The position numbers and the translations under genes are program-made. From the IMG/VR virus record IMGVR_UViG_3300046462_000707, positions 1 to 38,542 of that record: a stretch of DNA of 38,542 bases. One strand, given 5' to 3'. The DNA comes from a virus. Position 1 is the first letter of the stretch. Every line of letters begins with the position of its first letter. Positions 453 through 4,111 of the stretch are shown here, in pieces. The notes below the pieces were generated by a model that ran no database searches, was not told the origin of the DNA, and saw nothing but the letters and a program-made list of their open reading frames with translations.

Positions 453-526
453 GCCTGCTAACTCCAGGTATTGGCCTCGGGCAGGTCGGCGGCTTCAACG
501 CTGGCCTGCCCTCTTTGCTTGCTGAC

Positions 527-555
527 ACTATACACGATACTAGCTAGAATTGCAA
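527..555 (-). promoter_or_regulatory. Sigma70-like promoter for the leftward SWIM operon
   Basis: On the minus strand there is TTGCAA (550-555), a 17-base spacer and TATAGT (527-532), close to consensus in both boxes and spacing. Transcription would start near 520, leaving a leader of about 68 bases before the SWIM start at 452. The -35 box overlaps the left arm of the inverted repeat at 543-588, so whatever binds that repeat should affect this promoter. Confidence 0.6.
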
Positions 556-588
556 TTGTAAGAGACCTCTGTCCGCTACAATTCTAGC
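543..588. other. Candidate attP of the serine integrase (46-bp imperfect inverted repeat)
   Basis: Outer arms GCTAGAATTG (543-552) and CAATTCTAGC (579-588) are perfect inverted repeats. A second symmetric element, AGAG (561-564) and CTCT (567-570), flanks a central non-palindromic AC at 565-566. At least 16 of 23 positions are symmetric. Large serine integrases use attP sites of about this size, with inverted half-sites around a two-base crossover and usually next to the integrase gene. This one ends one base before the integrase ATG. An operator for the divergent promoters is the alternative, and both could be true. Confidence 0.5.
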
Positions 589-592
589 CATG
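577..592 (+). promoter_or_regulatory. Leaderless promoter of the integrase gene
   Basis: TACAAT at 577-582 is followed by exactly seven bases and then the ATG at 590, so transcription would begin at or next to the start codon. No Shine-Dalgarno sequence is present. A good -35 box is not obvious. The -10 lies inside the right arm of the candidate attP and would stay with the integrase after integration, while any -35 region would be replaced partly by host DNA. Confidence 0.4.
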
Positions 593-3806: not shown

Positions 3807-4111
3807 CTCAGGCGATCGAGACGTGCCGCTACTGCGGCCGCCAGGGTGGTGACGAGTTCAGCTTCGGGCCCGACGACATGGCGCCAGGTGTCTGCCCCAC
3901 GTGCATCGATGCCCGCATGTCAGCGCTCATGCTCGCCGCGGCACGCCGCCTGAAAGGGCTGGCCGGGCAAGGCTCGACACCAGCGCAGGTGCTCAGGGCG
4001 TGGCTGCGCAACGAGATGGTCGCCTTCGGCATCACGCCGACCTGGGCCCAGCGCTTCATCGACGCCGACATGGCCGCGTTCGCCGCGGCGGGAGAAAGGT
4101 TGCACCGCTGA
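3803..4111 (+). CDS. Zinc-ribbon protein with a helical C-terminus
   Basis: A 102-residue protein with CRYCGR at residues 8-13 and CPTC near residue 31, a treble-clef or zinc-ribbon pair. A mostly alpha-helical region follows (MLAAARRLKGLAG, RAWLRNEMVAFGI, RFIDADMAAFAA). It overlaps its neighbours at both ends (ATGA at the start, TGATG at the stop), so translation is coupled. Similar small zinc proteins fill phage early operons. The partner is unknown. Confidence 0.65.
   Translation: MTQAIETCRYCGRQGGDEFSFGPDDMAPGVCPTCIDARMSALMLAAARRLKGLAGQGSTPAQVLRAWLRNEMVAFGITPTWAQRFIDADMAAFAAAGERLHR

Follow-up and report, generated by a model that had tools for sequence, protein, structure and literature searches.

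A candidate attP site abutting the serine integrase gene of an uncultured phage

The window analysed here is the whole of the virus record IMGVR_UViG_3300046462_000707 (38,542 bp). Its final 115 bases repeat the opening 115 with two mismatches, so the window effectively amounts to a full circular genome. A large serine integrase of 463 amino acids, identified from Pfam, PHROG and a structure model, is encoded at positions 590-1981 on the plus strand. Upstream, at positions 33-452 on the minus strand, is a gene carrying a SWIM-type CxCxnCxH motif (CTCYDGQRRTCKH), whose product reaches no Pfam family. The intergenic region contains a 46-bp dyad at 543-588, the top symmetric site of the window and the candidate attP examined below; the SWIM gene is its neighbour on the P side. 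A terminator-like hairpin of 13 pairs (479-511) lies between the start of the SWIM gene and its likely promoter, where it would form a 5' leader element on the leftward transcript; it is recognisably conserved in the related contigs L008, L013, L014, L016 and L018. Downstream of the integrase gene, positions 2157-2188 contain an inverted repeat (GACACACAAG...CTTGTGTGTGTC type), which is followed by a leftward Xre-like gene (2224-2604). This repeat is a possible repressor operator and does not rank with the best-scoring attP-like sites around the integrase gene.

The domains Resolvase, Recombinase and Zn_ribbon_recom were all detected above the Pfam cut-offs in the integrase, which also matches the integrase family phrog_95 (E 3.6e-52). 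In the AlphaFold model, a long helix follows the catalytic domain, and the zinc ribbon is followed by a coiled coil of two helices (351-376 and 382-408). The elements that characterize a large serine integrase, i.e. the resolvase catalytic domain, the recombinase domain, the zinc ribbon and the coiled coil, are all present. With this protein as query, tblastn against phage and plasmid collections gave weak partial matches only, and the cultured-phage collection contains just distant partial matches to the subfamily. A search of viral contigs recovered a single sequence, the sister phage G001 (IMGVR_UViG_3300025944_000006); degenerate searches then yielded about 12 relatives sharing 31-43% identity. 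In the alignment with these relatives, Cys289, Cys292, Cys313 and Cys319 are invariant and Ser18 is near-invariant. When a profile built from 12 relatives was compared with solved structures, the Bxb1 integrase ranked first (E 1.1e-16) and the A118 integrase second. Foldseek matched the model to the integrases of SPbeta, phiC31, Bxb1 and A118 with low TM-scores; these and the low pTM are plausibly due to flexibly placed domains.

The outer arms of the dyad, GCTAGAATTG (543-552, P half, plus strand) and CAATTCTAGC (579-588, P' half, minus strand), form a perfect 10-bp inverted repeat. An inner pair, AGAG at 561-564 and CTCT at 567-570, flanks the dinucleotide AC at 565-566, which is the dyad centre and, by symmetry, the presumed crossover dinucleotide. 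The right arm is directly followed by C589 and by the ATG start codon of the integrase at 590, so that the arm ends one nucleotide before the gene and the dyad centre is 25 bp from the start codon. On direct reading, the 46-bp symmetric site of the original prediction, with its perfect 10-bp arms, its AGAG/CTCT pair and its central AC, is exact. The arms were correctly placed at 13-22 bases from the centre, which corresponds to half-site positions 14-23 when the core bases are numbered 1, as is done in the papers on Bxb1 and A118. Of the 23 symmetric position pairs, 16 are occupied by complementary bases, a value that is unique among the even centres of the window. The log-odds symmetry score calculated over 25+25 bp reaches 17.0, the maximum of the window (0.01 expected per 200 positions). 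The arm-pair search allowing at most three mismatches had 543-588 as its sole match (0 expected). A dyad of about 50 bp, made of imperfect inverted repeats around a non-palindromic dinucleotide, is what characterizes the attP of a serine integrase, and this organization is found at 543-588.

Such symmetry could have arisen by chance in AT-rich intergenic DNA: the stretch is AT-rich within a G+C-rich genome, and the 38.5 kb hold four other perfect 10-bp arm pairs, G+C-rich and hairpin-like by eye. However, the dyad score was equalled in just 2 of 5000 dinucleotide-preserving shuffles of the region 453-610, and 11 of 5000 shuffles contained any perfect 10-bp arms at a spacing of 14-44. As the position abutting the integrase gene also recurs in relatives (see below), we regard a chance origin as very improbable.

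For calibration, the same symmetry scan was applied, with no knowledge of the att sites, to six integrase genes that have been studied experimentally, covering 200 bp ahead of each. In four of the six cases the scan located the known attP, with the dyad centred on its central dinucleotide. The centres are GT at 26 bp before the integrase start for Bxb1, TT at 60 bp for phiC31, GT at 81 bp for phiBT1 (inside the attP annotated in its record) and TT at 37 bp for TG1. The central TT is the known core of the phiC31 and TG1 attP sites. In the Bxb1 upstream region, a terminator-like hairpin outscores attP, and the scan of the 200 bp upstream revealed no clear site for the A118 and TP901-1 integrases. 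The central GT is documented for Bxb1 (PMC3642061) and for phiBT1 (PMC5937489).

Among these systems, the attP-integrase (gp35) arrangement of mycobacteriophage Bxb1, whose integrase is the top solved-structure match of our profile, has nearly the same geometry as the window: the dyad is directly upstream of the integrase gene, with the centre at 26 bp versus 25 bp here, inverted arms are present on the outside, and the central GT corresponds to AC on the opposite strand. The two differ in that the integrases are only weakly similar in direct comparison, that the arms are at 18-24 in Bxb1 and at 14-23 here, and that the site described here is a candidate attP. The short core GGTCTC common to both sites was discarded as evidence, being too short. 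In the Streptomyces phages phiC31, phiBT1 and TG1, attP is likewise upstream of the integrase gene and has a non-palindromic dinucleotide between outer inverted repeats, but it is more distant from the gene than in the window. The integrases of these phages are also longer than the 463-residue protein of the window: about 605 residues for phiC31, from its annotated length, and 594-619 for phiBT1 and TG1 (PMC11530663). The LI integrase of the Listeria phage A118 is comparable in size and domain order, but in contrast to the window its upstream 200 bp contain no clear symmetric site in the scan. The zinc-ribbon motif of A118 occupies half-site positions 16-24 (PMC3783163). In Bxb1, attP identity depends on flanks at 18-24, within which positions 19-21 and 23 have strong effects (PMC3642061). 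Arms at 14-23 overlap both intervals, in agreement with the proposal that they lie in the region contacted by the zinc ribbon; the agreement is good, although imperfect at the outer edge, as the arms fall slightly inside the A118 and Bxb1 positions.

Two circular contigs of uncultured phages encode more distant members of the integrase subfamily with an arm dyad of 10 to 14 bp that also abuts the integrase start. In L061 (IMGVR_UViG_3300037466_001610; integrase 43% identical), the arms CGTACTGTTT and AAACAGTACG are at 17-26, the right arm ending 1 nt before the ATG. In L041 (integrase 38% identical), the arms GGTTACCGTCATAT and ATATGACAGTAACC, which include one mismatch, are at 15-28 and the right one ends 3 nt before the GTG. 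The arm sequences are unrelated to those of the window, and the cores are different, being GA and AA by symmetry. A weaker upstream symmetric site was observed in L036, and the same inspection of the other subfamily integrases found none with a clear site upstream, which weighs against the attP reading. The arms of L038 were rejected as an attP on account of an odd spacer, which leaves no centred 2-bp core, and the CG-centred sites of L008, L013 and L040 were rejected since a palindromic core gives no polarity. Perfect 10-bp arms are present at two of the six integrase starts tested and arms with at most one mismatch at four of the six, versus 17 and 186, respectively, among the 18,501 ATG/GTG triplets of the same genomes; the ranges of arm gap and spacer were set after the first examples had been seen, and this enrichment is therefore supportive and not a clean test.

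In L061 (region 3826-3971), the left half of the site belongs to the 5' coding piece of a host-type Bcp peroxiredoxin gene. This piece extends from a GTG codon (3826) to the residues DDTP (3951), stopping right ahead of the expected catalytic motif GCT, and it matches positions 2-43 of the Pfam family AhpC-TSA (E 2.9e-14). Phage proteins, a tape measure protein among them, are encoded on the contig. A prophage junction in bcp was rejected: L061 ends with a 127-bp terminal repeat and is circular, and the bcp piece is therefore carried by the phage. A phage that has, next to its integrase gene, a host-gene piece reaching close to the dyad is as expected if the dyad is attP and bcp is the target, and this strengthens the case for attP in the subfamily. 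No precedent for such an arrangement was found in a literature search.

The closest relative of the window, G001 (39,023 bp, with an exact 127-bp terminal repeat), is circularly permuted with respect to it and about 76-99% identical across the aligned blocks. In G001 the integrase gene and its upstream site are located mid-contig, and 543-588 is uninterrupted and identical in both circular genomes, as expected of an attP that is intact on the circular phage genome and adjoins the integrase gene. No difference was observed in 543-589, versus two in 453-542 and one across the entire integrase gene, so that the identity of 543-589 has little power in a region that is near-identical anyway. The case that would count against the prediction, an integrase kept with the repeat absent, was not encountered, since G001, the only close relative, has both.

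A RecT-based search detected 14 related contigs. Several of these sisters retain the SWIM gene and the terminator-like hairpin and then diverge into other modules: an HTH gene with a different serine integrase in L008, L012, L013, L018 and L021, and an integrase of tyrosine type, as read from its sequence, in L014. The repeat of the window is absent from all the sisters with other integrases, and the intergenic sequences of L008, L013, L014, L016, L018 and L021 differ from that of the window. The site 543-588 and the integrase of the window are thus missing together in sisters that share the SWIM side. Homology with the sisters is lost around positions 518-535, immediately to the left of the site, and the site and the integrase gene therefore act as one cassette. 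Comparison of window positions 521-590 with their equivalents in L008-L021 indicates that the DNA to the right of the SWIM promoter is swapped among modules, which include at least four types of serine integrase (that of the window among them) and one of tyrosine type.

The intergenic region also contains promoter-like sequences. On the minus strand, TTGCAA-17-TATAGT (527-555), a consensus match ahead of the SWIM gene, overlaps the P half and its arm; on the plus strand, a second consensus match, CTGACA-17-TAGAAT, points rightward. In total 2 such matches were found, versus 0.1 expected. The right arm overlaps TACAAT (577-582, plus strand), a possible -10 box, by sequence reading, of a leaderless integrase transcript that would start at about ATG 590; no good -35 box was seen. 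TACAAT is 7 nt before the ATG, the same layout as in L008, L013, L014, L016 and L018, in which the first rightward gene has a -10 box some 6-8 nt ahead of its start codon; this spacing suggests leaderless transcripts in the phage group. One of the two intergenic changes of G001, C526G, damages CTGACA, and TACAAT is therefore favoured as the integrase promoter.

These elements raise the alternative that the repeat is an operator of divergent promoters, through which a regulator binding as a dimer, either a phage repressor or the integrase, would control the integrase gene rightward and the SWIM gene leftward, with no recombination. The excess of promoter-like matches on both strands, the resemblance of TACAAT to the leaderless starts of the sisters and the presence of the Xre-like gene agree with such a role, as does the weak symmetry of the divergent promoters of L008 and L013 (scores 10.5 and 9.1, centre CG). 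On the other hand, the outer arms and the centre fit the attP geometry of four known systems, the repeat is missing in sisters where both the SWIM gene and the leftward promoter spot are retained, and the location of an L061 arm within a host-gene fragment would be odd for an operator. Promoter use alone also leaves unexplained the arms at attP distance beside three related integrases in unrelated contexts. We consider a purely regulatory repeat unlikely. The symmetry at 543-588 could in part reflect promoter function, and the site may have both roles; such a dual use is possible and would be compatible with the attP reading.

The layout, the distance to the integrase gene, the zinc-ribbon position of the arms and the recurrence in related circular phages all support the predicted attP, and we conclude with good confidence that 543-588 is the attP of the integrase encoded at 590-1981. 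Most likely this is a feature of a known kind, an attP beside its serine integrase being ordinary for such phages. Scanning the genome_contigs collection (GTDB r220) with integrase and RecT peptides, an approach that would miss distant relatives, detected no prophage. DNA patterns spanning the centre or covering the left half recovered only G001, with no attL/attR or attB in the collections searched. In the mechanism that we propose, an integrase dimer would bind 543-588 with one subunit per half, the catalytic and recombinase domains being placed near the centre and the outer arms being contacted by the linker and zinc ribbon. After synapsis with a host attB, cleavage around the AC at 565-566, subunit rotation and religation would insert the circular phage genome. 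The resulting prophage would have the integrase gene next to the P' half at one end and, at the other, the P half adjoined by the leftward SWIM gene.

More tentatively, and with doubt prevailing, the attP of this subfamily may overlap the integrase start in a compact arrangement in which the P' arm doubles as a leaderless integrase promoter. The attP-bound integrase would then silence its own gene, and integration would replace the upstream half of the promoter with host DNA. At least one member, L061, carries a 5' piece of bcp, its presumed target gene, as far as the core, and its insertion would thereby restore the interrupted gene. The rebuilding of an interrupted target gene on insertion is usually associated with tyrosine integrases.

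These results provide a concrete 46-bp candidate attP for an integrase subfamily with only distant partial matches in cultured phages, and this candidate fixes where the host junctions of this uncultured phage group should lie. As an unsupervised dyad scan upstream of the integrase gene recovers the known cores in four of six cases, an attP could be proposed for other uncultured phages without a host genome.
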